From contig NC_092672.1 of assembly GCF_964355755.1 (NCBI RefSeq), forward strand, positions 22,132,501 to 22,196,500: a stretch of DNA of 64,000 nt. Direction: 5' to 3'. The DNA is from Antedon mediterranea. Taxonomy: Eukaryota; Echinodermata; Crinoidea; Comatulida; Antedonidae. The stretch's first letter is position 1. Every line of letters begins with the position of its first letter. Below, one piece after another: positions 46 through 61,784 of this stretch. The notes beneath the pieces were generated by a model. That model was not told where the DNA came from and did no database searches. It saw only the letters and a program-made list of their open reading frames with translations. The position numbers and the translations under genes were made by a program.

Positions 46-339
46 CTTGTTTCAAGCATTTGAACTCATATAATATCCTTGTTGGAGGACCTTCAACTTC
101 GACTTCAAACGTGTCTACCTGAACACTCCTTAGCTCTAGATTATAGACAATGGTGTTCTCTGTGATGTTGTTGCACGGCACATTTATGTCAATCTTATTC
201 AATGTTAATTCTTCCTCAACAATTTCATTTAGTGATTGTCCAGTATAGTTTCCCGTAATGCGGTAAAAATACTGAGTTTCTTCATTTGGTGTTTCCCATT
301 GTAGTGACAAGACGTTTTCTGACGATGTTACGTTCACGT
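46..339 (-). CDS. Receptor exon 7: additional fibronectin III domain
   Basis: A 294-nt symmetric phase-1 exon between acceptor GATCATAG and donor GTATGT (45-40). One FN3-like domain is visible: VLSLQWETP with the B-strand Trp, YFYRITGNY, IVYNLELRSV and VEVEGPPTRI. It directly follows D2, so the receptor has at least Ig-D1-D2-FN3. The donor shows that the gene continues beyond the left edge. Confidence 0.82.
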
Positions 340-3300
340 CTATGATCATAGAAACTACAAAAACAAATTTAAAAAAGAAAATGTTCTAGTCACGTACTGA
401 TATATATTGATCGAGAAGGTAAACTGTTATTTTTATATACATTATGAGGATTTTGATATTTAATTTCATTTGGTCATTATTAATGCAGATCTGATTAGTG
501 AGCACATAATGACAACTCTATTTTGCAGCTGTCACTAGATACTATCTAGCTGACTATTGCAAGTTAGTTAGATACAACTGGAGGTGGATTAAATACACTA
601 TTAGTGACAGATGTAAAATTGGATGTAATGACCCTAATCACTACATATGGTTATTTGAACATTGAATGCAATTTACAAACGTGTAGAAACGATCTAGGTA
701 CTAGGTATACGTATTCTAAATTACTTTAAAACTCACTGGGTAGTGTGATAATTGGACTCCAATCACTGAACTGGTGATGTAATGAAAACCTTGATCGCAC
801 TTGAAATTCATATTCAGCCACAGCTGTCGTAATCTCCTCAATAATTATCTGCTTTTTATGCTGTTTTTCAATCTAATAAAAACAATTCGCTTTTAGTCAC
901 TTTATCAATTATTGGGAGCTACATGACCTTATTTTTCTTTTGAAGAATTTTTTTACGTTTCAAGAATCTTTAAAGGGGGATTCTGGGTTTAAAATTGCTT
1001 TTAAATATCGTTTATTTATTAAATAAAAAATATTATAACAATATAGACATGTCAGAATGAAGAAATAATAACGAGAAATTAAAAAAAATTAATTTCATAT
1101 ACATTTTAGGGTAAATTCATGGAAAGTCTGTTTTTCAGCAGCTTAGGGAAGCTCATTAATACTCATGAGATATTCACAGAATCACGTCATCAGTGGATTC
1201 CAAAATCGCGACGTCAAGCTTGTACGTTGTGTTCTCTCTCCTCTCTGTCAAACGACGACCACCCGATCATTGTGAAATACATTTTTTTGTAGATTTGCTA
1301 AGCTAGGCCTAATTAAAGTGTAATAATAACAGTAGTAGCATATATTTATTTGACATTTAATGAAATACAAAATTTAGTACAGATTACGGAGTCATAAATT
1401 ATACTATTTTTATACCTCGAATTAATAGTACAGATCGTATTTCGGCTTCACGTACTAGGCTAGGCCTAGCCTAAATAATATTATTCATGCCGGGGTGAGA
1501 GCCATTTCTGACTAGGGATTCCATGCCACGATGGCTACGTTAAAACATCGCTATGTCTAAATGTCTAAAGATACGGTACCGTATCCATACTTTAAAAAAC
1601 TAAAGGTACGGTAATTATAGAGGGCGCTATGTAATGTGGATGTTAATCAAATAGGTTATTGCATTGGTTTTCTGCAAGCCAGCTGTGTAGGCTAGTGGGC
1701 ATGTGGTGAGGCTTTGGCCTAAGGGGTTGTAGGTTCGATACTCTTCTTGACGTCTTTTTTTTAGTTTTTAATTTAAGAGAGATTATTTAGAGGGTTAGGT
1801 TTTTAATAATATTATTTAGGAAGGAGTTTAATATTTAGGAAGGAGTTTTATATTTAGGAACGAGTTTTATATTTAGGTACGAGTTTTAGGAATGCAATTT
1901 TACCGGACTTTTAGCAAACGGAAGCGCCCTCTATAATTACCGTATCTTTAGTTTTTAAAAGCATGGATACGGTACCGTATCTTTAGCAACGGCGTTAAAA
2001 CATTGGGGCCATCATTCATCATGGGCCTAGCTAGCCTATTACTAAACGATTGGCCCATCAATAACAAAACTCAGTGGATTCCAAACCCATCCTATCAAAC
2101 CAAACTCCTAAACAATCTAAACCTAAAACGTTCTACAAAAATCGGCTGTAAATATTGAGGCAAAACAAGGTCCGATCGCGTTGCCGTCCGCACGTCGTAT
2201 GGTGTCCCGATCGTCTAATAAGTAGGCCTAGTTTACTCTCCAAAAAAGCGGATACTGCATCAAGCAAGTAGACCGGTAGTAGGAAGGAGACCTAGCCTAG
2301 CCGATCCGGCCCAGTTAAAAATTGAGCTAGCTAGAGTGTAGTAGACCCTATGCGAATTGATACTACCAGGCCTTTCTTTTACTATAGGCTACACTTGTTA
2401 AAATTAGCAATACTGTACTTATGTTTACAAATATTCCAACTCTCTCATTCGAGCTATATTATTTATACCATTCCGGTGGGTTGAGTCGACCTTCTATCAA
2501 ATACTGTACATCGTTCATGTTGTGATTATAGACGGGGTATACTCGACCCGACCAGTTTGGTATTGTATACTGTATCTGCTTATCACGTGACGATGCCAGG
2601 CATGGGCAGAGAGAGCACGTGTATCGTCGTCTCGCTCTCCTCGCTCAGCAGGAATGTATATGTTACGCTTCATTGATTTTGAAGGCTTTCCCTAAGTCAG
2701 TGCGAAAATCGGCAAACGTAAAGTGCAAACTTATCTAATTTTTCACTGTTTTGATGGATTTTCATAGAAAATTGACTTTATAAATGGGAAGACCGACTAA
2801 AATTACATCAGATAAGTATAATTTTACAAAAGTAATTGATATGGTTAATGATAACGAGTCGTCGGAAGATTTACCATTTCACGAATTTCCTATTCTGTAA
2901 CCACAGTGTGATTTTGCCGTAGCTGCACTTGTAATCTGGCCTCATTTCACAGCCTTCGTTCTGCTTCACTGGGCGCTTATATAAATTGAAACTTTTACCG
3001 TTCAAGAGACAAACAAATATATTTTACATTTTTTACTATTCATTTTAAACCCGGAACCCACCTTTAAATTTTCTAATGAAACTGTACGATCAAGAGCGTC
3101 AAAAGTTTCAGATGTTTTGTAGAAGATGAATAAATTATTATTGTCATGTCATCACAGTAGCTTACCACAAAATCAGTGCAAATATTTTCACTTGCACTGA
3201 TGGAGGGCAAGTGCTGTCTGAAAGCTACAAAAAATTCATTTTGATTTAGGTCTTTGCTTATTTTATTTTGCATCTCCATTGCGATCTAGCCACTGATACC

Positions 3301-6300
3301 TACAGTCTCGTCATTTTTTAGTAATTTGCCTTTAGATTAATAAATAAATTAAAATAAATAAATTCTAATCCTGGATAACGGTATAACAATCTTTTAAAAT
3401 GTGTGCTTTAATATTTTGAAAAATTGTTTAATGAAACCAAAACGACAACGTGATCTTTAGGAAGGAAGTGGTCTTTTGGTGCATACGTGATATACGATAG
3501 TTATTCCACAATTTGTTGTCTCCTGATAATATACTGTAGATATGACAAAACAAATAGTGAAAATGATTGTAACTTCATACCTCTTCCTTCCATGTTTCAT
3601 TTAAACGTCTGTAACGAAGTTGAAACCATAGCGAGTTACAATAATAGCAATCTTCTTGTAGTTTCCAGAATACTATGACGTTTGATTCCTCCACTGAAAC
3701 GTTATCAATTAATGGTGACAAAGGTACGGCTAAAAAAACAACAAAATGAAACGATTAGATCGTGCGTACAGCCATGAGAGTTACTCCAGTGAATATTTAA
3801 CGATTAGATCGTGCATACAGCCGTGAGAGTTACTTCAGTGAATCTTTAACGATTATAATAATCGTGCGTACAGCCATGAGAGTTACTTCAGCGAATCTTC
3901 AACGATTAGATCGTGCGTACAGCCATGAGAGTTACTTCAGTGAATCTTTAACGATTAGATCGTGCGTACAGCCATGAGAGTTACTTCAGTGAATCTTTAA
4001 CGATTAGATCGTGCGTACAGCCATGAGAGTTACTTCAGTGAATCTTTAACGATTATATCGTGCGCACAGCCATGAGAGTTACTGCAGTGAATATGTAACG
4101 ATTATATCGTGCGTACAGCCATGAGAGTTACTTCAGTGAATCTTTAATTTAGATAAGTAACGTCTGCCGTACATCAAAAGACATAACAACAGAATCATTG
4201 AGACATTCTAAGGTTACCGAACATTAGTTCATTTAGGAGACACAAAAGCAAACCTAACTTTACTAGTGTTTATTCGTCATGCCAATCTTCAAACAATTTA
4301 GATATTATTTAAGATTAAAAATTATGATTTTTGTTATTTTATACTTCAAAAGCTCATTGAACGAAACCTTGTATCCCCGCCGGATTAATCACATAAAAGA
4401 GATTAGAAATTTGATCTTCTGTGGTGCTTGTATATTTTATGAAATAATTTGATGGTAATGATCTATATTTCCCAAACTTGTGCTAAATATTTGCCTACAG
4501 ACCTTCAGTCTTAGAATCAAATGTGGATGTTGTATTTGCAGTACCAAACATATTTTCAACAACTACTCGTACTAGATGTGCTGTCATCGGATTTCCATCA
4601 CTTTCTGAAACTTTGCACGTGCTGTCGTTTAGCTTATTAGAACAGTCGATCCACACATTAGAACTGTTTCTAAGAATTAAAACAATTTATAATTCAATAT
4701 TAATTGTTAGGAATCAAAATTCTATAAACAGTAATCAGTAATCTGTAATCAATAATCTGTTCTCGATAATCTGTAAACAGTAATCAGTAATCTGTAATCA
4801 ATAATCCGTAATCAATAATCTGTAAACGGTAATCTGTAAACAGTAATCAGTAACAATAATCGGTAATAAGTAATTGGTAATCTGTAATCAGTAATTTCTA
4901 ATCAATAATCTTAAACCAATAATCTGTAATCAGTAATACTCAATAATATTTAATCAATAATCTGTAATCAGTAATCTGTAACAATAATCGGTAATAAGTA
5001 ATTGGTAATCTGTAATCAGTAATTTCTAATCAATAATCTTAAACCAATAATCTTTAATCAGTAATACTCAATGATATTTAATCAATAATCTGTAATCAGT
5101 AATTTGTAAATATAATAGTATTATTTTGTTACTTTGTCCTTTTGTATAATATTTGATTATGCACGTGCAGCTGTTGAATTTAATGAAGGAGCGATGAACA
5201 GACAACTGGTTGGTGTCACATTACGAGACACTGTGATAAGAGAAGAGTAAGAATGGCAGCCGACAACCGGCAACAGAAGGGAAGGGACGACATTATTTCT
5301 AATACAGGAAAATCTTTGGCTAGGCCAGCACAGAACAGAAACGAATCATGGCAAATGCTTGTGGAGGGCTACAGTACATCCGACAGTGTTATGATGGAGC
5401 CGAGGTAAGGAAAGGTCATGCATTCTGTATTAGACATACCTAAAGAAATGTTTCATTTGAAATGAAACATTTAAGAAATTTATTATTTATGAGAAAAGTA
5501 ATGATTCTAATTATTTTTTTTCTTATTTATCAATAATACAAATCACTTACTGAAATTGAAATGTATAGACAGTTCTAACTCCGGTGAATTCCGTTGCCCA
5601 TGTACACCAATAATCAACAATATTTGTCGATCTGCAGTTTAATGTTGGAGACGATGGCACGACTAAAAGATACAAATATAGTATAATATATAATATAATA
5701 TAATAATATAATATTTATTCGGTCATCAATGTAAAAATAACCAGGAATGAGAATAGGCTAAAGCCCAAACAGATTCTGCACTCACTCCATACAATACAAT
5801 CAGTTAAAGATAAAACCATATACAAGAAAAATACAAATAAATTATACATAACATGAAATATAGTGTTTTGTTAGAGCAGCCTTAAATATTGAAATTGTTT
5901 GTGAATCTTTTATGTCATTTGGTATTTGCTCCCATAGTCTAGGAAAGGAAACAAATACAGAATTATGAAAAGTATTGCCTTTCGAATTCCAACGTAAAAG
6001 CCTACCCGGACATCTTTCACTAGTTTTAATATACTCATTGAAAGAATGGGGACAGTAACCTTTCAACACCTTAAATCCTAATGAAAGTCTATGTAATTTA
6101 AACAAGTCATCAATAGATAATAATTCAAGCACTTTCAAGGTATATAACTATCTGTTGTGTGGATTCTTATTACATGTAAGGAGTGGTTTTCAATAATAAC
6201 AACTCTCATCTCAGTCTCCAACCACATACAATAACAGACGGAAACAAATGTTTTAAATATATCATTAATCTGGGACGGTGCGGCCATACACGCCAATTGC

Positions 6301-7212
6301 CACATGTACCGCCGCAACATCTCTTTTTATTAACGGTGATTAATTAGATTCTAGGACTTCATAAAGGTAACATTCAAGATACACCTCGGTCCCGTTCATG
6401 ATTACACGTAAGTTTGCTTCATGGATCAATTATCGTTAACTTTGGCGGGATCAAATCATGTTTTCAAAACTATGTATGCCATTGACTAACTTACTACCAA
6501 CTGTAAATGACGATTCTGATCTATTTGTCGTTACTCTTCCATTTTGTTTTTCTACAAGTAAAAAGCATTCAATCCAATGTTGATAACCTGTCATGTTTAG
6601 GTTTGTTAAGGTAAGAATGGCTTCTGTATTTGAGATTACAGCAGTATTTTTTCCTAAATTAATAGGTACTTCGTCAACTTTCCATTCAATATCCGAGGCA
6701 TTGTACGATGTTTTTGTTTGATCTAACGTACATGTGAAGTTCAGGGTGGAACCGGCCAACGAATATGGATCAACGGGCGTCAGTTTAAGTGCTGCAATAA
6801 AATAAAAAAATGTTTAGGTACGTACAGCATATAAGTTGTGTCCGCACCCAACAATATTACTGTACAAATAAGAAAATAATGGTAACATTGTAAAGAACAA
6901 CAGTGAAATAGTTATTTAAAAAATATTTATTAAAGAAAAAAATTGAAAAAAGAAAGTTGTTAATTGTTTAACATTATAAAGAAGATTTATTAACCTATCA
7001 TGCAAATATTTCTATTTTGAAACATAGGTGTATTATAAGAAGTAAGTTCCATCGTTTCCTCAGAATATAATTCTTAAGTTAAATAGTTAAAATAAACAAA
7101 ATGATGGTGTCTACTTACATGATGTAGCTTTGAAAGCGCAGACAGTGGTCAAAATAATCCAAATCTGGAACGTACACAATGGAATGTTTAATGTATAAGA
7201 GAGTTCTGCCAT
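46..7212 (-). CDS. Class I cytokine receptor, gp130-like (5' seven exons; 3' part off the left edge)
   Basis: Seven minus-strand exons (7119-7212, 6495-6791, 5551-5662, 4503-4669, 3581-3729, 737-872, 46-339) have AG/GT borders and join in frame to about 416 residues. The order is signal peptide, Ig-like domain, cytokine-receptor D1 (C-x9-C-x-W, then a second Cys pair), D2 with a box FSDWS in the WSXWS position, and another fibronectin III domain. This is the layout of gp130, G-CSF-receptor and LIF-receptor relatives, which bind helical cytokines at the cell surface and signal through JAK/STAT. Intron phases are 1,1,2,1,0,1 and 1 at the last visible donor; as I recall, 1-2-1-0-1 across D1/D2 is what vertebrate class I receptor genes show. 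The last donor at 45-44 leads out of the window, so further FN3 domains, the membrane segment and box1/box2 cannot be seen. Ligand and orthology are unknown. The family call is strong; the individual splice sites are inferred. Confidence 0.88.
737..872 (-). CDS. Receptor exon 6: second half of D2 with WSXWS-type motif
   Basis: A 136-nt exon (phase 0 in, phase 1 out; donor GTGAGT). The end reads YEFQVRSRFS, then FSDWSPIITLP. Alternating basic residues before an F-S-D-W-S box are the class I receptor hallmark; the first Trp of WSXWS is Phe here. The long intron separating it from exon 5 holds the 1.9-kb dispersed repeat. Confidence 0.85.
1133..3066. repeat. Dispersed 1.9-kb repeat, copy 1 (in receptor intron 5)
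   Basis: This stretch aligns end to end with 55372-56757 in the same orientation, from the shared start agggaagctcattaat to the shared end aacccggaaccc. Differences are scattered indels plus a nested inverted-repeat element (1549-1992) that copy 2 lacks. Near the 3' end both copies open an ORF beginning MGRPTKITSDK (2785 and 56494). It diverges by frame after about 30 residues, so it looks decayed or is only a first exon. No terminal inverted repeats or transposase are visible, so the class is unknown. Confidence 0.85.
1549..1992. mobile_element. Nested inverted-repeat element (MITE-like) with target duplication
   Basis: The ends carry inverted repeats of about 60 bp (core CTAAAGATACGGTACCGTAT; inner part ends in AGAGGGCGCT). 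An 11-bp direct repeat CGTTAAAACAT flanks the element (1538-1548, 1993-2003), while copy 2 of the host repeat has this once, an empty site. The interior has a tRNA-like pol III pattern: A-box-like TAGGCTAGTGGG at 1688, B-box-like GGTTCGATACTC at 1732 and a T run at 1752. Four tandem copies of an ATTTAGGAAGGAGTTT-like unit follow (1802-1890). Confidence 0.8.
3067..3560. other. Intron 5 remainder, no gene seen
   Basis: Unique-looking AT-rich intron sequence. About 60 bp near 3285-3345 resembles 53732-53785 (shared catttttagtaatttt-like core), suggesting another dispersed repeat. ORFs here are short and unsupported. Confidence 0.5.
3581..3729 (-). CDS. Receptor exon 5: first half of D2 (FN3)
   Basis: A 149-nt exon after a T-rich acceptor (TTTTTTTAG), phase 1 in and phase 0 out, donor GTATGA. 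It encodes the D1-D2 linker (VPLSPLIDNVSVEE), the B-strand Trp in VIVFWKLQ, and LWFQLRYRRLNETWKEE, the typical C/C' strands of D2. A Cys-rich DCYYC insert sits in the B-C loop. Confidence 0.85.
3751..4146. repeat. 49-bp minisatellite, 8 copies
   Basis: Eight direct copies of a 49-bp unit starting acgattagatcgtgcgtaca (starts 3751, 3800, 3849, 3902, 3951, 4000, 4049, 4098). Copies are nearly identical; the third carries a 4-bp insertion. The array lies within receptor intron 4. Confidence 0.97.
4503..4669 (-). CDS. Receptor exon 4: second half of D1
   Basis: A 167-nt exon (phase 2 in, phase 1 out). It carries the second conserved Cys pair (IDC, eight residues, C) and the closing strand VVVENMFGTANT followed by FDSKTE. 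The last part resembles the V-E-x-N-x-x-G stretch that ends D1 in gp130-type receptors. The donor GTCTGT is non-consensus after GT, so the exact 3' edge is the least certain of the set, but the phase fits exon 5. A plus-strand ORF over this exon is an antisense shadow. Confidence 0.8.
4690..5112. repeat. AT-rich short tandem array (GTAATCWGTAATCAATAATC type)
   Basis: Irregular tandem repetition of TAATC-based units (taatctgtaatcaataatc). A longer block of about 120 bp occurs twice (roughly 4850-4960 and 4980-5090). Lies in receptor intron 3. Confidence 0.9.
5253..5408 (+). pseudogene. Possible LINE reverse-transcriptase C-terminal scrap
   Basis: A 51-codon open stretch includes SLARPAQNRNESWQMLVEGY, which has the look of the R-x-x-W...V tail found near the C terminus of non-LTR retrotransposon proteins. 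It sits antisense in receptor intron 3 and is too short for certainty. It is also less AT-rich than its flanks. Confidence 0.3.
5551..5662 (-). CDS. Receptor exon 3: first half of cytokine-receptor D1
   Basis: A 112-nt exon (phase 1 in, phase 2 out; acceptor CTTTTAG, donor GTAAGT). The peptide contains PTLNC, nine residues, then CTW: the C-x(9-10)-C-x-W signature of class I cytokine-receptor D1. It continues into the C-strand-like VRTVYTFQF. The exon is far too short to be found by ORF length. Confidence 0.85.
5690..6138 (-). pseudogene. CR1/jockey-like LINE 3' end (RT C terminus and tail)
   Basis: The minus-strand ORF 6138-5842 ends with FVSFPRLWEQIPNDIKDS and then a F-K-A-x-L-x-K-H-Y motif: the conserved R-x-W-x-x-L/I-P...F-K...L ending of non-LTR retrotransposon ORF2 proteins. 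It is followed by a short 3' UTR and a TATAATATAAT-rich tail (5680-5720). It lies in receptor intron 2, in the same orientation as the host gene. Only the last ~100 residues remain, a 5'-truncated copy. Confidence 0.8.
6495..6791 (-). CDS. Receptor exon 2: Ig-like domain
   Basis: A 297-nt exon, phase 1 at both ends, between acceptor TTATTGCAG and donor GTAAGT. It encodes one Ig-like domain: a B-strand Cys in LNFTC, a Trp in DIEWKVDE, the LTLTNLN strand and the partner Cys in WIECFL. Several N-x-S/T sites fit an extracellular domain. An N-terminal Ig domain before the cytokine-receptor module is what gp130, IL-6R and G-CSFR have. A symmetric phase-1 exon is the usual form for a shuffled extracellular module. 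Confidence 0.85.
7119..7212 (-). CDS. Receptor exon 1: start codon and signal peptide
   Basis: ATG at 7212-7210 opens 31 codons plus one base, ending at a perfect GTAAGT donor (phase 1). The hydrophobic core IWIILTTVCAF follows a 16-residue N region, as in a secretory signal. An in-frame TAG lies eight codons upstream (7236-7234), which supports this ATG if the exon is not preceded by a coding exon. Confidence 0.8.
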
Positions 7213-7330
7213 CGTCTTTGGAACAATAAAAAGCTAATGATAATTATACATAGTATTAACGTGATTGGTCGAAATGAATTATCGGAATGATCGTTCTAAA
7301 TGATAATCGTATGACGTCATCGAAGTACAC
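7213..7330 (-). promoter_or_regulatory. Possible proximal promoter of the receptor gene
   Basis: Reading toward the start codon, there is an ATGACGTCAT palindrome (7311-7320, CRE/ATF type) about 100 bp upstream of the ATG, and a CCAAT box on the minus strand (GACCAATCAC, 7261-7270) about 50 bp upstream. The motifs are visible; promoter function is inferred and no TATA box or start site can be assigned. Confidence 0.35.
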
Positions 7331-7744
7331 AAAATAAAATGAGAGGGTTAATTTAGTGTCAAAATCAAAACATTAACTCTAAGTGACCGGAAACATTCTT
7401 ATTGAAAGGCAAATGTAACCTTTTTTATGTAATATAACGGATATTGCCTTATTTTAAAGATATTTTATAACATTTGAGATCCTCGTTTAGTAGTCAATAT
7501 ATTTTCTCACCAGACTATAATTTCCATAAGCGCTACGCAATTCGAGGAAATAAAATACGATTGTGTTTCTTGTTGTTCTATGGATATTGCATCAACGGAT
7601 TCTGGTACTGCAGTTTCAGGGACATAAGGTTGAATAAGATCCACATCTTTCCAAATAACTGGTTAAAACTTAAGAAAAGACTAATCAGCACTTATCGTAG
7701 TCTTTCATGAGAGTGATCCCTTCCTCCTGGCTGAACAGCAAATC
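7331..7744. other. Upstream region; possible internal part of the BEL-like element
   Basis: If the LTR at 7762-8570 is a 5' LTR on the minus strand, this stretch is where leader and gag would begin. No recognisable gag or pol coding is visible. The plus-strand ORF here has no support. Confidence 0.35.
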
Positions 7745-8570
7745 CTGGTCACGGCACCAAATGTAACAGGTTCATACTACTAGCGTCGTAGCTGTATCGC
7801 GTAGTATTTTCCGGAGCTGCAGCACTGGCACAACACAATAAAATCATTCACAGAGACAGTTCTTGGTTTGGAAAAGTTACATTCTTTTATTGAAGCTAGT
7901 AACCAGTCGGAAGGAGATATAACAAAACCAGTGTTACTATATTTAAAATAACATCAGTGATCGTATCATTAACGACAGTATGCCTATAGGCTACTATTGC
8001 GTTGTGTCTAGTATAACATCAAATAACTAATCAACTATGTTAACTGTAGTAAAACCATTCTCAAATTAAGAGAGATAAAAATATAGATGCTTACCTAGTA
8101 ACCAGTCGGAAGGAGATGAAAACCTTCACTTTGGGCTAGGCACTAGTAAGTGTTATCCATTCTCAGTTGGGTACTATGACAATTTTTAACCGATGGTACT
8201 GTATATACATTTACCATAACGTTATTTCGAAGTTTACAGACCGATTGTATTGTAGGCCCAACTCGAGTCATACACATGTAATTATCAATTTAAATTCGGT
8301 TACACAAGATAAGAAACTATTAAAAATGCAAATCAATTAACAAAATCCCTTGTCCATTTATGAACTGACCCATACTGAAACATTATACACTAAATATTCA
8401 TGACCATTTTCCCGCCACTTGGATGAGGTGACTCGTCTATTTATAGCATGGTCACTTATCATTCCAGCTTTTACTTTAATGGGTCCCACAGGGTTTCTCA
8501 GATTCAAGTCAGATTCAGCAGATAAATCATTCAAGTATTTGGGTATAAGCATACCTGTTACCCTGTTACA
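7745..8570 (-). mobile_element. BEL/Pao-like LTR with primer-binding-site flank
   Basis: On the minus strand the element opens TGTAACAGGG (8570) and ends CCTGTTACA (7762), a terminal inverted TGTAACAGG/CCTGTTACA pair about 809 bp apart, as in an LTR. It is followed directly by TTTGGTGCCGTGACC (7761-7747), the kind of sequence I know from just behind the 5' LTR of BEL/Pao elements. A TATAAATAG box lies inside near 8440 on the minus strand. The unit gtaaccagtcggaaggagat occurs twice inside (7900 and 8098). No second LTR or pol is visible, so this is a truncated element pointing toward the receptor gene. Confidence 0.65.
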
Positions 8571-8930
8571 TATATAAATAAAGAATAATCGTACGCCTCT
8601 TTAAGTTTAATTAGGTGTTTTTAGTTTGAACTTTCAAACCAATACTATGACAATCTAATGCGAGTGATCGCTTGTGATTGGTCAAATCACCTTCGTTTCG
8701 CTTACGTACATACGTTACGTCCAAGAGGAGAACCAAGCTTTATTTTCACTGACGTATATTAAAATGTATATCCTGTTCATAATGCAATCATGGTAATATG
8801 CTAGATTACTTTAACCCAATGTAAACACACTTCTAATTAAGATGTAAATTATCGTAAAAGGCGACAGTACCATTAGGATAATTGTGTCATTTCGTTATTC
8901 GTGTACGTGAAGACCGTAAGCTTATTATAA
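8571..8930. other. No gene seen
   Basis: AT-rich sequence between the LTR and the LINE tail. No ORF, repeat or RNA gene that I can support. Confidence 0.5.
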
Positions 8931-8935
8931 ATATA

Positions 8936-9005
8936 AGATAAGATAAGATAAGATAACTTTTATTGATCCTCAAAAAGGAAATTCATTGCTCGTCATAATA
9001 ACAAA
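8936..9005 (-). mobile_element. Non-LTR retroelement 3' tail with (AAGAT)n
   Basis: Read on the minus strand, a GAATTTCCTTTTTGAGGATC block leads into CAATAAAAGTTATC and a (TTATC)n tract. This is the familiar ending of many animal LINE/SINE elements. A related (GATAA)n tail occurs at 17137-17165. The rest of the element is not recognisable. Confidence 0.6.
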
Positions 9006-9549
9006 GAAAACACTATAAAAACAAATATAGCATAAAACCATTCATATAAAAACATCTAAAAAATGAACAAATATATAGTATTTTAATACCTGCTGTATGA
9101 GTAGTACCGTATCCGTGCCCTGCGTCTTGTTATGATCCACCACAATCCACGATTTTTGTATTGTCATGGATCAGTTGTTGTTCGTGTGCGTTCTGCGTAT
9201 TTGCATATAAGTGTGTTGCTGCTAGTTGTTTTTTGAGCATTGTGTTTGGCGCATTTGCATATAGGTGATGTTTTGTTTAACTACCTGGTTTTTCTGTCTG
9301 CGCGTCAGAAAAGCTTTTGCTGCAAACACAGGAAGATGTGATTTTCATTACGGTGTTGTATATATTAGTATTAGGCCGTTGTTGAAGTTACTATTCTAAG
9401 TAGTAAAAAGAATTATATTACACGATAGACGGATCATTGCCTGATAATTTATTATAGGAAATTGCATGCATACTAAATAAAGCTGGCTTGACTGTGTGAT
9501 AATGGCCGTTTTGATTTGTTGGGTGTTACATTTGACTTAGAAATAAGCA

Positions 9550-9917
9550 AAATGACTAAAATAAATGTTGAAGAGAAAACTGGTAAAATTAGGTCTACTA
9601 TCAATGTGTGGCGTAAGAGAAATCTTACTGTGTTGTGAAGATTAACTGTCTTAAAATCTCTAATATTATCAAAACTTAATTATATTTTTACAAAGTTGCC
9701 AAACCCTACTACAGCTTATCTAAGTGAACTTAATAGGATGTTTTCTTAATTTTTTCTGGAAGGGAAAGGATAAAGTCAAAAGAAATAAGCTAATTAGAGA
9801 GTATAAGGATGGCGGAATTAACATGATTAATATCTTCAGTTACATAAAGGCAGAAAGATTAGTTGAATGCGAAGAATACACAGTGTGTAAGTATAGTGGT
9901 AATACAGTGGTAAAGTG
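9550..9917 (+). pseudogene. L1/Tx1-like LINE reverse-transcriptase fragment, broken
   Basis: In two stop-interrupted stretches the frame gives KIRSTINVWRKRNLTVL, then NFFWKGKDKVKRNKLIREYK and DGGINMINIFSYIKAERL. This matches the W...R-x-L-T-x-x-G and F-W-x-G-K...K-D-G-G-L-K-x-x-D arrangement near the end of L1/Tx1-clade RT. The related, longer minus-strand copy at 31937-33267 has the same blocks. Internal TGA/TAA codons make it a dead fragment. Confidence 0.75.
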
Positions 9918-17515: not shown

Positions 17516-17519
17516 TTTT

Positions 17520-19784
17520 TACATAGTTGGTATAAACTACACCTTTACATAGTTGGTATAAACTACACCTTTACATAGTTGGTATAAACTACACCTTTAC
17601 ATAGTTGACATAAACTACACCTTTACATAGTTGGCATAAACTACACCTTTACATAGTTGGTATAAACTACACCTTTACATAGTTGGTATAACTACACCTT
17701 TACATAGTTGGCATAAACTACACCTTTACATAGTTGGCATAAACTACACCTTTACATAGTTGGTATAAACTACACCTTTACATAGTTGGCATAAACTACA
17801 CCTTTACATAGTTGGCATAAACTACACCTTTACATAGTTGGCATAAACTACACCTTTACATAGTTGGTATAAACTACACCTTTACATAGTTGGCATAAAC
17901 TACACCTTTACATAGTTGGTATAAACTACACCTTTACATAGTTGGTATAAACTACACCTTTACATAGTTGGTATAAACTACACCTTTAACATAGTTGGCA
18001 TAAACTACACCTTTACATAGTTGGTATAAACTACACCTTTACATAGTTGGTATAAACTACACCTTTACATAGTTGGCATAAACTACACCTTTACATAGTT
18101 GGTATAAACTACACCTTTGCATAGTTGGCATAAACTACACCTTTACATAGTTGGCATAAACTACACCTTTACATAGTTGGCATAAACTACACCTTTACAT
18201 AGTTGACATAAACTACACCTTTACATAGTTGACATAAACTACACCTTTACATAGTTGACATAAACTACACCTTTACATAGTTGACATAAACTACACCTTT
18301 ACATAGTTGACATAAACTACACCTTTACATAGTTGGCATAAACTACACCTTTACATAGTTGGTATAAACTACACCTTTACATAGTTGACATAAACTACAC
18401 CTTTACATAGTTGGTATAAACTACACCTTTACATAGTTGGCATAAACTATACTACACCTTTACATAGTTGCCATAAACTACACCTTTACATAGTTGGCAT
18501 AAACTACACCTTTACATAGTTGACATAAACTACACCTTTACATAGTTGACATAAACTACACCTTTACATAGTTGGCATAAACTACACCTTTACATAGTTG
18601 GTATAAACTACACCTTTACATAGTTGACATAAACTACACCTTTACATAGTTGGTATAAACTACACCTTTACATAGTTGGTATAAACTACACCTTTAACAT
18701 AGTTGACATAAACTACACCTTTACATAGTTGGCATAAACTACACCTTTACATAGTTGACATAAACTACACCTTTACATAGTTGGTATAAACTACACCTTT
18801 ACATAGTTGGTATAAACTACACCTTTAACATAGTTGACATAAACTACACCTTTACATAGTTGGCATAAACTACACCTTTACATAGTTGGCATAAACTACA
18901 CCTTTACATAGTTGACATAAACTACACCTTTACATAGTTGGTATAAACTACACCTTTAACATAGTTGGCATAAACTACACCTTTACATAGTTGGCATAAA
19001 CTACACCTTTACATAGTTGACATAAACTACACCTTTACATAGTTGGCATAAACTACACCTCTACATAGTTGGCATAAACTACACCTTTACATAGTTGGCA
19101 TAAAGTACACCTTTACATAGTTGGTATAAACTACACCTTTACATAGTTGGTATAAACTACACCTTTAACATAGTTGGCATAAACTACACCTTTACATAGT
19201 TGGCATAAACTACACCTTTACATAGTTGGCATAAACTACACCTTTACATAGTTGGCATAAACTACACCTTTACATAGTTGGCATAAACTACACCTTTACA
19301 TAGTTGGCATAAACTACACCTTTAACATAGTTGGTATAAACTACACCTACATAGTTGGTATAAACTACACCTTTAACATAGTTGGTATAAACTACACCTT
19401 TAACATAGTTGGTATAAACTACACCTTTAACATAGTTGGTATAAACTACACCTTTAACATAGTTGGTATAAACTACACCTTTAACATAGTTGGTATAAAC
19501 TACACCTTTAACATAGTTGGTATAAACTACACCTTTACATAGTTGGTATAAACTACACCTTTACATAGTTGACATAAACTACACCTTTACATAGTTGGCA
19601 TAAACTACACCTTTAACATAGTTGGTATAAACTACACCTTTAACATAGTTGGTATAAACTACGCCTTTAACATAGTTGGTATAAACTACACCTTTACATA
19701 GTTGGTATAAACTACACCTTTACATAGTTGACATAAACTACACCTTTACATAGTTGACATAAACTACACCTTTACATAGTTGGC
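17520..19784. repeat. 26-bp minisatellite, about 87 copies
   Basis: About 2.27 kb of the unit ACATAGTTGGTATAAACTAC plus ACCTTT. Main variants are GGTATAAAC, GGCATAAAC and GACATAAAC. A 27-bp form with TTTAACATAG is scattered and then forms a near-homogeneous run at about 19320-19530. One copy carries an inserted tata (near 18450). The array ends at tagttggccataaaaaaaac. Confidence 0.98.
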
Positions 19785-20850
19785 CATAAAAAAAACATAA
19801 AAAGAATACAAACAATACAACAAACGGATACAAAATAAATGGCGTGAATACAGGAACAACTAATTTTAAACCAACCGACTCGATCTCTGTTGTAGTCACA
19901 CATCACTGAAATAAAAAAAACATTAAATATTAGGGTAATAAGTGAAAATAATCATAATAACTTAAACTATAGTATATATAATAATGACTGAAAAATATCG
20001 ATAACTGAAAGGGTAACATACACTACTCCACACTAACATTTGCAAGCTAGCTCTGAGATTATAATTTTGTTTTTCCATGATCTTTATCCACATAGATTGT
20101 TATTGCTGAGGAAAAGTGTATAGTGTTTATGTGTACTGTTGCATACAAAGTCACGTTAAATTAATAATGTTTCTTTCCGAAGTCCAGGCAATCTAACAAC
20201 AGGATGCAGGATCTATTATGCTATAATAATAAATTAATAATGTTTCCCTCCGAAGTGCTATACTAGATCACGTTATACCCAGATATTTATAATTTATACT
20301 ACACTCTAGATAGAAAAAGAGATCATTCAAACACACTAATATCGATCAGCAAGAAGTTAATTTTGAAAAAAATGAGTTGCAACCATAATTTCCACATTTG
20401 GCTAGCCTGAGATCATGTTTACTATTATAAATGCCAATACCTTTAGTCTTATAATAGTGCCCTCTATAATGGTTTGACATTTTTTCAAAATATTATAGTG
20501 CCCTCTATAGTTTAGACATAATTTTATAAAACCTCCAGGAATATTTAATTTTTCCAAATTGATAATTTTAGGTTCACATGAATTGACTGCTTTATAATTA
20601 TCAGCGAAAGACGCTGCATGGATCCATATCAGTTTGTATATTGCGTTAATGAGGACGATTTTTTATTTGTTATTTTTTAAATCCATTTGGCTCATCTGAC
20701 AAAGGTAAGTCCTATGCATATCTTCATTTTTGAAATTTCCTCTCGGCATTTAATACCATCGACTCTCTTATGTATTAATAGATAAGCTTTGTTTTGCCCA
20801 TGCCTCACCTCCATCTATCCAATCTGGAGCAGTTGTATCGTTGATGGTGA
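19785..20850. other. No gene seen
   Basis: AT-rich spacer. Small local duplications are visible: ttaataatgtttc(t/c)(t/c)tccgaagt at about 20162 and 20232, and tatagtgccctctata at about 20451 and 20501. Confidence 0.5.
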
Positions 20851-31936: not shown

Positions 31937-33267
31937 TTATCTTTTTTTCAGATTTAAACATTTGTAGGATACAAACATTTCGTAATTATTGTCAGTTTCA
32001 AATAAAAGTCTTTTGAAAGAAAAAACAGGAATATGTATGCTTACTGCTCTAATTATTTCGTTTATCTCTCTCCATAAACATTTTACTGTTATGCACTCTA
32101 CTAACATATGTTTATCATTCTCAATAACATTGCATGTGTCACAAAATGGGGAATTTACAAGTCTCCACCTATGTAATCTTTCATTTGTTGGCAATATTTT
32201 GTGCAACAATTTAAAATTAAAATGTGCTAGTTTTTTTTCTTTAAGACCAGAAACTTTCTTAACCCATATTTTTGTCCATAGCATATTACCAAATATGGAT
32301 TCCCACTTAACCTGTGCCGTAGGCGTAATATATTGAGCATCTATTATGAATCTATATAATTGTCTAGACGTCATATTTAAGACCTTATTGTTTGTAATAG
32401 GTATATCATTTACATTAATGTCATGTGTTGATTTTAAAATACATTTCCATTCTTTTGGAATGGCTTTCAATTTACATGAATATTCACTGATCCAATTTTG
32501 TGTACATCTTAACCTTGTTATCTCTATCGCAGGCTTAGACACATTATATTTATTACATCATATCTTTTTAAAAACCCTGATCTAATCCAGTTACAGTTAT
32601 ATAACGGCTTCTTTTTAATACATATAAACTCATTACCCCATAATGATTGATTAATAATGTCATCATAGCTTATTGGTTCCTTATTTAATCTATTATTACA
32701 AGCATTAGCTACTGCTATAGACTTAATAACTCAGCTGAGAGGTAAAATGGTGGTACGGATATATTACACGGAACTTTTGATAAATTTGAGGTTAATGATT
32801 TTGGGCCTATTTTTTCTATATAAAATGTAGGTAAATATTTCCATTTCGTTTTCATACAGTCTCCTGTGCCATTTAACTTGGAAAGATATTACCTGAGATC
32901 TGAATTCTACCATTTTTAGACCACCTTGACTGTAATTGGCACACATGGTTTTTCTTTTTATTTTCTCTTTCTTAGTTTCCCAAATGAATTTAAAAATTAA
33001 TTTATCCACCTCTTTTATTACTTTTTCTGGTACTAGCAAAATGCTGGAATTGTATATAATTTTTGAGAGCGCTAATGTTTTTACAATAGTAATTCTTCCA
33101 AAAAAAGTGAGGTGTCTTTTCTCCCATGTTTTTAGGGTATTTTCTAATGCGTCTATTTTTTCTTTCCAGTTCTTTTGATAACAATATTCCTTATCATGTC
33201 CAACATAGATACCTAATATCCGAATTGGTGTGGATGTCCAAGAAATGTTACCATGTGTGTCCTGCAA
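31937..33267 (-). pseudogene. L1/Tx1-like LINE reverse-transcriptase C-terminal half, disrupted
   Basis: Two minus-strand ORFs, 33267-32764 (167 aa) and 32542-31937 (201 aa), are parts of one non-LTR retrotransposon ORF2 broken by stops or frameshift between 32763 and 32543. The first has IRILGIYVG, the W-K-E-K-I...L-x-x-W-x-x-R-x-L-T-x-x-G-R block, and FKFIWETKKEKIKRK with SQGGLKMV. The second has HFNFKLLHKILPTNERL and a C-x2-C-x7-H-x4-C finger (CDTCNVIENDKHMLVEC), the Zn-knuckle-like end of L1/Tx1-type proteins. The RT core with YxDD is missing, so the copy is 5'-truncated and inactive. Confidence 0.88.
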
Positions 33268-36690: not shown

Positions 36691-36982
36691 ATGTTGGTTT
36701 ACCTGCTTATCTTTACAATCTATTAGTATGTTAAACATTTTGTACAGTCAAGAGTTAAGTTGTACATTTTACCCAGTTGTTTCTTGTCTTTATTGAAAAT
36801 GATACCTTAATATCAGTGGTACTGGTGTCACACAATGCATCCAAAAAGAATAAACAAAAAAAACAACAAAAGTAATTAAATGAACAAATTGAACATTAAA
36901 CTTTTAAACTTCTAAACTTCTTATACATTTTTTAGTGAATTTATTTGTTCATTTCTAATTAATAAAGTATCAAATACATTCT

Positions 36983-38058
36983 ACAGTATTGTTTTATACC
37001 TGTTTGTTATATCATGTTGGTTTATCTGTGGCTTTCTATTTAATAAAGTGTATCAAATACAGTATTGTTTTATACCTGTTATATCATGTTGGTTTATCTG
37101 TGCCTTTCTGTTTAATAAAGTGTAATACAGTATTGTTTTATACCTGTTATATTATGTTGGTTTATCTGTGCCTTTCTGTTTAATAAAGTGTATCAAATAC
37201 AGTATTGTTTTATACCTGTTATATCATGTTGGTGTATGTGTGCCTTTCTATTTAATAAAGTGTATCAAATACAGTATTGTTTTATACCTGTTATATCATG
37301 TTGGTTTATCTGTGCCTTTCTGTTTAATAAAGTGTATCAAATACAGTATTGTTTTATACCTGTTATATCATGTTGGTTTATCTATGCCTTTCTATTTAAT
37401 AAAGTGTATCAAATACAGTATTGTTTTATACCTGTTATATCATGTTGGTTTATCTGTGCCTTTCTATTTAATAAAGTGTATCAAATACAGTATTGTTTTA
37501 TACCTGTTATATCATGTTGGTTTATCTGTGGCTTTCTATTTAATAAAGTGTATTAATACAGTATTGTTTTATACCTGTTATATCATGTTGGTTTATCTGT
37601 GGCTTTCTATTTTAATAAAGTGTATTAATACAGTATTGTTTTATACCTGTTATATCATGTTGGTTTATCTGTGGCTTTCTATTTTAATAAAGTGTATCAA
37701 ATACAGTATTGTTTAATACCTGTTATATCATGTTGGTTTATGTGTGGCTTTCTATTTAATAAAGTGTAATACAGTATTGTCTTATACCTGTTATATCATG
37801 TTGGTTTATGTGTGGCTTTCTATTTAATAAAGTGTAATACAGTATTGTTTTATACCTGTTATATCATGTTGGTTTATCTGTGGCTTTCTATTTAATAAAG
37901 TGTATCAAATACAGTATTGTTTTATACCTGTTATATCATGTTGGTTTATCTGTGGCTTTCTATTTAATAAAGTGTAATACAGTATTGTCTTATACCTGTT
38001 ATATCATGTTGGTTTATCTGTGGCTTTCTATTTAATAAAGTGTATCAAATACAGTATT
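36983..38058. repeat. 72-bp satellite, about 15 copies
   Basis: Unit: cagtattgttttatacctgt, tatatcatgttggtttatct, then gtg(g/c)ctttctrtttaataaa and gtgtatcaaata. Starts are spaced 66-75 bp, mostly 72. Since 72 is a multiple of 3, long ORFs result (37168-37716 and 37188-37556); they are repeat artefacts. Confidence 0.97.
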
Positions 38059-38059
38059 G

Positions 38060-39535
38060 TTTTTAACTCTTATATTATTTGTATTGTATTTTTATTTTGA
38101 CTGTGTCTTGAAACATGATGTAAAGTAACTTTTGTTTGGTTCATCTGTTGGCCCTGGCTGTTGCTTGAACTTAGACTACATTAATCTAATAACCTTTGCC
38201 TTAGTTTACTGTTTGTTTGTCACCCTGTTATTCCTTTAGTAATATCATATCTGATAAACTTATAGCAAATATTAAACCAGGCTTTGTTGCACTATTGTAG
38301 CATTAAAATAGTAGGTTTATTTATATACTTTTTTAAACACTCTGAAATTCACAGTACACTTTTTTCAGTTTGTCTTCTGTCTTTATACAACTTTGTTTAA
38401 ATATTATTATTACAAAATAGTGTATAATTTACTTTATTATTATTTAAATCCAAAGTTGTTTAAGTATATTAAGTCTTTTGTCAGAATGTCTTATTAGCAT
38501 TTTTTTTCTTAAATTTCAACTCCGTATTTTTATTTAAAAACAAGCTAATTTATTATTATGTCTGATTGCTGAATTTATTATTATATTTGACCAATAACTG
38601 TCTTCAATATTGCTGAAGCCAGAGTAGAGTTATTTTGTTTTCCTTCTCAGTGCAGTCAAAATTGTGCCGCTCATGCCTCCATGTTGTAACCATTGTCATG
38701 AGTTTAACAATAATCTGTTAAATGTAAAACTAAACGATGGAAACACTCAGTTCCTGTTATTACTAATATCATTAATAATGTTTATTTACTAAAACCTTGT
38801 ATGAACCTCGTCTCATTTAATGTATTATAGTATTTTGTCTAATTTCAAGTAAAAATATATTGCATAATTTTCACAAGACCTTAATCAGTCATTATTAGAG
38901 TTTACCTGGGGTACCTTGATACACATTGTTTGCTTTACCTAAAATGGTAATTCACGTTGGTTTGTAGTTGTAATCAACTAAATGATAAGAACAAAGCAAA
39001 CACTAAGTCACGCTATGTTGTAATTTGTATAGAATCCATTGAATTGCACTGGTTATCATTATATAAATAATGATATAAAAGTGTTTGGTCTTCTGTACAA
39101 CAACCACTTGCATTCAACTTTTGAAAAGGAAATGTTGCATATTTTGGATTTCTTTTATTTTAGCATTACCACTGTAAGTGTACATAGTACTTGTAGGTCT
39201 AAATAATGTTATAACATTATTTGATTCAGTTCTTGTACCATATTTATATTTGTTACTTTCAAAATTAGAGGGAGGGATGCTTTTATTTAGATAAAGGGTG
39301 ATTTAAAGCCACAACAGTCTATAGATGATTCTAATGATTTGTTGCTTCATCACCTTTGCTGTTGTCATGAGCTGTTATCACTAAGTATCTACCATTAATA
39401 TTCAAGTAACTCGTAATCAACTATTTTTTAATGTGTGTGTTACTTTAATATCAACCATACAAATTTTGAATTGACAAATTGTTTTTGTTTTAATTCATTT
39501 TAAACATTATACATTGTTTCTGCCCTTTTTTCAAT
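38060..39535. other. Upstream of the ankyrin gene; 5' exon not identified
   Basis: The ankyrin exon at 39540 has a 3' splice site, so a more 5' exon must exist. No convincing one, and no promoter motif, is visible here. Confidence 0.4.
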
Positions 39536-61399: not shown

Positions 61400-61713
61400 T
61401 AAAGAATTAAATGTTTGAACAAGAAAAACTGTACTTATAGCTATTTTTTATCATACCCTACCTAAAATTGTTTAATAATCTAGAACTCAGTGTTTTGTTA
61501 ACTTGTGTTCATACATATTCATAGCTATAAACATGTGCATAACGATGCTTAAATTAAACAGAGTATAGGCCTACCTATCATACAGTATATTATATATATG
61601 AGAATTTTATATAAATCATACTGTAAATTATAGAAACAGTGCTCATATTCGGAACATGATCTCATAATAGCTCATTGGCGAAAGTTCCATACTTTTTAGT
61701 TGTATGAAATAAT

Positions 61714-61784
61714 GTCTCTAGCGGGATTCAAACATGCAACCTCTCGCTTACAGGGCGAGTATCATACCACTAGACCACAGAGCC
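61714..61784 (-). pseudogene. tRNA-like gene, anticodon UGU by position (probable tRNA pseudogene or SINE head)
   Basis: Folded on the minus strand, all arm lengths fit a tRNA (71 nt). The acceptor stem pairs at 6 of 7 (one G-A mismatch, one G-T), and the anticodon stem CTCGC/GCGAG is perfect around loop CCTGTAA. The anticodon position reads TGT (Thr), but position 33 is C instead of the near-universal T, and the T stem has two mismatches. The body resembles tRNA-Pro/Thr. No T run follows directly. Likely non-functional. Confidence 0.65.

Follow-up and report, generated by a model that had tools for sequence, protein, structure and literature searches.

A predicted gp130/CRLF1-like class I cytokine receptor gene and its paralogues in the crinoid Antedon mediterranea

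Structure of the receptor gene

A stretch of 64,000 nucleotides (nt) of chromosome 3 (chr3) of the feather star Antedon mediterranea (contig NC_092672.1, positions 22,132,501 to 22,196,500; hereafter the window) was analyzed. A preliminary description, drawn up from the letters alone, had proposed that seven minus-strand exons at one end of this stretch join in frame into an invertebrate class I cytokine receptor with an Ig-D1-D2-FN3 layout, and had guessed at an echinoderm, which the crinoid source bears out. With a probability of roughly 0.85, the gene encodes a single-pass class I cytokine receptor of the gp130/CRLF1-like (Ig-bearing) group, its first seven exons lying in the window, with the signalling mode and copy history proposed below. 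The gene, termed copy B, is one of six copies (A-F) on chr3.

The predicted exons run from window position 7212 to 46 on the minus strand, and all seven are present with AG acceptors and GT donors throughout. Joined, they give a single open frame of 421 codons and one further base, rather than the 416 residues first reported; the introns within the window have phases 1, 1, 2, 1, 0 and 1, and the final donor, after exon 7, is in phase 1 as well. Exon 1 (7119..7212, 94 nt, GT donor, ending in phase 1) holds the start codon and a hydrophobic leader, which was taken as a signal peptide by eye, and is kept in all six chr3 copies. The Ig domain occupies exon 2 (6495..6791, 297 nt, phase 1-1, AG/GTAAGT), whose donor after position 6495 agrees with that in the NCBI model of copy F. 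The D1 domain is divided between exon 3 (5551..5662, 112 nt, phase 1-2), containing the C-X9-C-X-W stretch, and exon 4 (4503..4669, 167 nt, phase 2-1), containing the second cysteine pair. Likewise, D2 is divided between exon 5 (3581..3729, 149 nt, phase 1-0) and exon 6 (737..872, 136 nt, phase 0-1), which holds the WSXWS-type motif FSDWS. Exon 7 (46..354, 309 nt, phase 1-1) would encode a single FN3-sized domain (D3), a label derived from exon size and position for a domain that was modelled without confidence. The size range of 94-297 nt given earlier was correct for exon 2, but the longest exon is exon 7. A 49-bp tandem repeat in eight copies is found in the intron between exons 4 and 5 (window 3750-4147).

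The closest protein match to the window product is P0001, an 'uncharacterized protein [Antedon mediterranea]' of 707 residues with 90% identity over the query. The query for this search, and for the IL-2R-beta and NCAM1 comparisons below, was a 420-residue version in which exon 2 ended at 6498 (294 nt). P0001, which represents six clustered sequences, is identical in every residue to the spliced product of copy F (chr3:25317219-25323663). The exon set is not a chance assembly, because it is kept in six chr3 copies and P0001 exactly matches spliced copy F; the seven-exon structure is thus confirmed at the level of genomic sequence. The protein searches listed Antedon proteins only, and as the search tool requires shared 5-residue words they are uninformative on absence elsewhere.

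An extension to the left had been suggested to find a transmembrane (TM) segment and a box1 (PxP) motif, and both were found. The gene runs off the window into three tandem stalk exons (chr3:22132176-22131722; 63, 63 and 60 nt), each phase-symmetric and keeping the frame, followed by a TM+box1 exon (chr3:22131332-22131202) and tail exons (chr3, from 22130621), all on the minus strand. Box1 (PxP; WPxPKF) reads FIEWPDPKFF in the window gene and FIEWPEPKFF in copies A, C, E and F, and the TM helix was placed at residues 451-474 in the predicted structure of P0001. The full product of the window gene would comprise 650 residues, compared with 702-707 in A, C, E and F, and its tail is 51 residues shorter than in these four intact copies. 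The tyrosine sites YRSS, YMVV, YFRL, YTPM and YWKL are retained, while YYSR and the stretch EIDNLL were lost through a frameshift. EIDNLL, which we take to be an acidic dileucine-like motif, is found in A, E and F; C differs from it by one letter, and the chr4 relative has EIENLL.

Class I receptor features

Sequence profiles and predicted structures strongly support the identification as a class I cytokine receptor. When eight crinoid ectodomains were combined, the resulting profile matched CRLF1 (6.7e-21) and gp130 (1.3e-17) over Ig-D1-D2, with class I receptors ranked ahead of the unrelated FN3 proteins that the preliminary description had considered as a possible outcome of such a search. 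The predicted structures matched IL-11R-alpha, CNTFR-alpha, CRLF1 and gp130, D2 aligned with D2 of IL-2R-beta, and the fold of the D1-D2 cytokine-receptor module was recovered in the predicted models as well as by the profile. By profile and fold, the nearest relatives would be CRLF1, gp130, IL-11R-alpha and CNTFR-alpha. A genome-wide search with EpoR_lig-bind yielded seven matches, none above the cut-off; of the four outside the chr6 cluster described below, the one that was read is an Ig domain.

The motifs were compared with those of known receptors. Box1 and WSXWS are class I receptor features. The published D1 pattern of class I receptors is CX(9-10)CXWX(26-32)CX(10-15)C. The crinoid D1 reads C-X9-C-X-W-X24-C-X8-C in all five chr3 copies tested (D was left out) and in three of five chr6 models, with spacers of X25 and X27 combined with X8 in the other two chr6 models and X24/X7 on chr4. 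The WSXWS motif is present as a one-letter variant, namely FSDWS in the five chr3 copies tested, FSEWS on chr4 and WSDWG in 5/5 chr6 models; strict WSXWS occurs in none of the chr3, chr4 and chr6 sequences tested. D1 and D2 are each encoded by two exons with entry phases 1, 2, 1, 0 and exit phase 1 in all six chr3 copies. Phases of 1-2-1-0-1 are usual for vertebrate class I receptors, on whose intron phases nothing usable was found in print. The five chr6 models, one of which lacks a good last donor, were chosen with the chr3 phases required and therefore provide no test of phase.

Paralogues and mosaic history

On chr3, the six copies are spread over the region from 20.62 to 25.32 Mb in minus-strand orientation and share the exon structure with per-exon identities to copy F of 87.5-100% (using the best-aligned copy of the tandem stalk exon). 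The ectodomain is open in every copy except D. Copies A, C, E and F are open to the normal stop, B has the shortened tail, and D carries a 7-base insertion in the FN3 exon together with a tail change of the same kind as in B. A further relative is located at chr4:138020-142794. The NCBI model P0003 on chr4 resembles a fusion of the receptor Ig domain and half of D1 with an unrelated leucine-rich-repeat-like protein (PF24758), and probably reflects a faulty gene model by which the chr4 receptor is split. On chr6, a tandem cluster of 73 kb (1241617-1314570, minus strand) contains seven Ig-module matches (one of them partial and interrupted by stops in the stretch that was read) as well as four TM+box1 matches, which suggests some six additional class I receptor genes, with WSDWG motifs. 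At one chr6 locus, two tandem Ig-D1-D2 modules precede a single TM exon, and the NCBI model P0004 spans from one into the next; another chr6 protein, P0006, has no recognisable D2 yet keeps the TM segment, box1 and tail. All receptor copy counts are lower bounds. The gene family is not as unannotated as it had first looked, given that NCBI holds predicted proteins for one chr3 paralogue and for the chr4 paralogue, both labelled 'uncharacterized protein', and names three chr6 paralogues 'cytokine receptor-like factor 1'.

Alignment of the chr3 copies indicates that copy B is a mosaic of an E-like ectodomain and a D-like tail. Over most ectodomain exons and introns (alignment coordinates 67-9594, with gaps), B is 97.6-98.7% identical to E, while the part beyond the stalk exons shares 98.6-98.9% identity with D and about 92% with E. 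The synonymous distance (dS) between B and E is 0.021 in the ectodomain versus 0.14 in TM+tail. The changeover lies within or next to the repeated stalk exons; a fixed-motif search found this symmetric exon of 57-63 nt three times in B, twice in D and E and once in A, C and F. The mosaic picture is not a simple one: the flank and first exons of B are also 96.6-98.8% identical to C, and at most 97.7% to D. The upstream flank of B is common to C, D and E at 97-99%, with A and F more diverged there. Within the window, part of the 20-22 kb interval matches four chr3 places with 97-99% identity, of which two are no more than ~30 kb away from copies C and E and the other two are not close to any copy; the duplicated blocks therefore extend past the receptor gene. 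Segmental duplication plus recombination appears to be the best explanation for the window copy as one of six on chr3.

A broader history is put forward tentatively, as one that we do not yet favour. Crinoids may have independently built a multigene class I receptor repertoire (~13 loci: six on chr3, one on chr4 and ~six on chr6), as vertebrates later expanded the family separately. The chr3 copies would have been diversified by recombination swapping whole ectodomains and signalling tails at the repeated phase-symmetric juxtamembrane exon, giving rise to full-length, tail-truncated (B) and TM-less (D) receptors.

Away from the receptor gene, the window contains several repeats and remnants. 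At 17518-19790, a 26-bp unit is repeated about 87 times in an array (95% matches), and about 15 copies of a 72-bp unit at 36982-38075 account for a plus-strand open reading frame (ORF) of 182 residues without Pfam match. A remnant of a retroelement of the long interspersed nuclear element type is found on the minus strand at 31937-32542, where an ORF has a zf-RVT domain above the Pfam cut-off; the neighbouring minus-strand ORF at 32764-33267 has no Pfam match. At 61713-61784 on the minus strand, an Rfam tRNA match (39.6 bits), for which ARAGORN reports none, is possibly a tRNA pseudogene or tRNA-derived repeat.

Signalling, alternatives and known receptors

A four-helix-bundle ligand would be expected to bind the D1-D2 elbow and the Ig domain and to pair or cluster receptors into a dimer or a higher assembly. 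JAK bound at box1 would then phosphorylate the tail tyrosines of YMVV, YFRL, YTPM and YWKL, and the phosphorylated tail would recruit STAT, perhaps also PI3K via the recurring YTxM site. Sites of this type (YTPM, YTKM, YTNM) recur in chr3, chr4 and chr6 tails and fit the PI3K YxxM consensus. A YxxQ motif is absent from the five chr3 tails listed and from the chr4 protein P0002; P0006 has one (YPAQ). The short tail of copy B, lacking YYSR, would most likely alter internalisation or output, or make the protein a tuned or dominant partner. STAT exons are present in the genome at chr2:2983157 and chr2:2982547. A probable JAK FERM-linker exon lies at chr8:1972084, whose likeness to the JAK FERM/SH2 linker we assume to go beyond its sub-threshold Pfam match. 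PF18377 (JAK FERM) gave no match in the genome, nor in the controls. JAK was also sought by its kinase domain, and none of the four matches read as DNA (chr11:18073900, chr6:20648780, chr6:1737480 and chr8:1958900) is clearly JAK by eye, the last being JAK- or SYK-like.

Several observations weigh against a signalling class I receptor at this locus. A profile of P0001-P0003 (chr3/chr4; P0003 chimeric) yields just CRLF1 at 0.0045 and the gamma chain at 0.049, and the strong sequence match needs the chr6 paralogues. P0001 and P0002 reach no Pfam cut-off. The D1 cysteine order is present, but the spacers of 24 and 8 are below the published ranges (26-32 and 10-15, respectively). The FN3, stalk and tail parts were modelled without confidence, and the P0001 model, with a mean predicted local distance difference test (pLDDT) score of 42.6, is poor outside D1-D2. 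The exon model of the window copy is known from genomic sequence alone, its last coding exon is frameshifted (a net shift relative to copy F) so that the tail ends early, and the support for JAK is the single chr8:1972084 exon, which scores 19.6 bits where the cut-off is 26.1 (E 0.16). Finally, the ratio of nonsynonymous to synonymous change (dN/dS) in TM+tail exceeds 1 in four of six pairs among A, C, E and F, with one pair at 0.96 and one undefined without synonymous change, on 5-10 changes each. TM+tail ratios are 0.41-0.44 in the four pairs with B, and the ten pairs among A, B, C, E and F all have ectodomain ratios of 0.23-0.64. Constraint therefore acts on the ectodomain; in the recent tails, the changes are too few to decide.

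Given the frameshift, copy B could also be a pseudogene in decay or a copy that does not signal, with A, C, E and F as the only working ones, especially as the frameshift is shared with D, which has the additional FN3-exon insertion, and as TM+tail of B is at dS 0.13-0.14 from the four intact copies. We consider this unlikely, though not strongly so, since exons 1-9 of B are open with intact splice sites, box1 is retained along with five of the seven tail tyrosines found in the intact copies, the change is near the C terminus and the ectodomain dN/dS against E is 0.23 (11 changes). The best Pfam match of P0001 is DSCAM FN3 (0.011, below cut-off), all eight ectodomains match DSCAM FN3 at E up to 1, and NCAM1 appears at 0.048, which would suit an Ig/FN3 adhesion protein of the DSCAM, contactin or NCAM type whose FN3 pair merely resembles a cytokine receptor. 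This identity is very improbable and was rejected in spite of the DSCAM match, because class I receptors rank first by both profile and fold; CXW, FSDWS, box1 and the four-exon D1-D2 split (for the split: PMC1963337, in the excerpts used here) are class I features. CRLF3 and Domeless are class I-related proteins known outside vertebrates (PMC1963337 and PMC3296744, both as excerpted), and a receptor of either type in place of a gp130/CRLF1-type one was weighed as well. It is improbable, as CX9-10CXW, absent from CLF-3/CRLF3, is present here and the module, a single exon in Domeless and Ciona CLF-3, has four exons here (both comparisons after the same excerpts of PMC1963337). CRLF3, CXW-less, is also possibly leaderless, in contrast to the hydrophobic leader seen by eye in the crinoid receptor. 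A gp130/CRLF1-like receptor remains the preferred reading.

Among known receptors, the gp130-like architecture proposed at the outset holds only in part. The apparent layout of Ig-D1-D2-one FN3-TM-tail is different from gp130 (IL6ST), which has three FN3 domains after D2, whereas the crinoid gene has one FN3-sized exon before the stalk in 6/6 chr3 copies, and P0001 is fully accounted for by the chr3 exon set without further FN3. The YxxQ STAT3 docking motifs of gp130 are missing from the chr3 tails, and the crinoid cysteine spacers are shorter than in gp130 and the Ciona gp130-like receptor. CRLF1 is the best sequence-profile match across the whole Ig-D1-D2 and lends its name to the three chr6 paralogues. 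CRLF1 is secreted and CNTFR-alpha is anchored by glycosylphosphatidylinositol, while in the chr3/chr4 proteins a TM helix is followed by box1 and a long tail that bears tyrosines. The crinoid gene shares the gp130-type split of the module over several exons, which the Ciona gp130-like receptor also has (PMC1963337, as excerpted). Domeless of flies is likewise an invertebrate class I receptor and signals through JAK-STAT.

The receptor is a further member of a known family and not a new kind. IL6R has been reported in the sea urchin S. purpuratus, a hemichordate and Ciona, likewise deuterostome invertebrate class I receptors that were compared by description, and the remaining IL-6-family receptors in vertebrates alone (PMC13203501, 2026, in the parts available); the words crinoid and Antedon are absent from the main text of that article as available. 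The sea urchin is without apparent cytokine receptor signalling according to a passage of PMC3296744, and a passage of PMC8226699 recalls an IL-6-like molecule reported from the starfish Asterias forbesi, with similarity found below threshold. No crinoid cytokine receptor was found in the open-licence literature. The preliminary description expected a bearing on when IL-6-type signalling arose; no such dating is given, as IL6R and the Ciona gp130-like receptor are already in print (PMC13203501 and PMC1963337, as excerpted).

As far as these searches go, the crinoid expansion and its mosaic copies are undescribed, and the expansion is the more interesting part of the finding. Crinoids are the sister group of all other living echinoderms. 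Complete predicted crinoid receptors (Ig, D1-D2, TM, box1 and tail), together with STAT, probably JAK and many copies, place a gp130/CRLF1-like receptor in crinoids, and the feather star would offer a test case for class I cytokine signalling before adaptive immunity.
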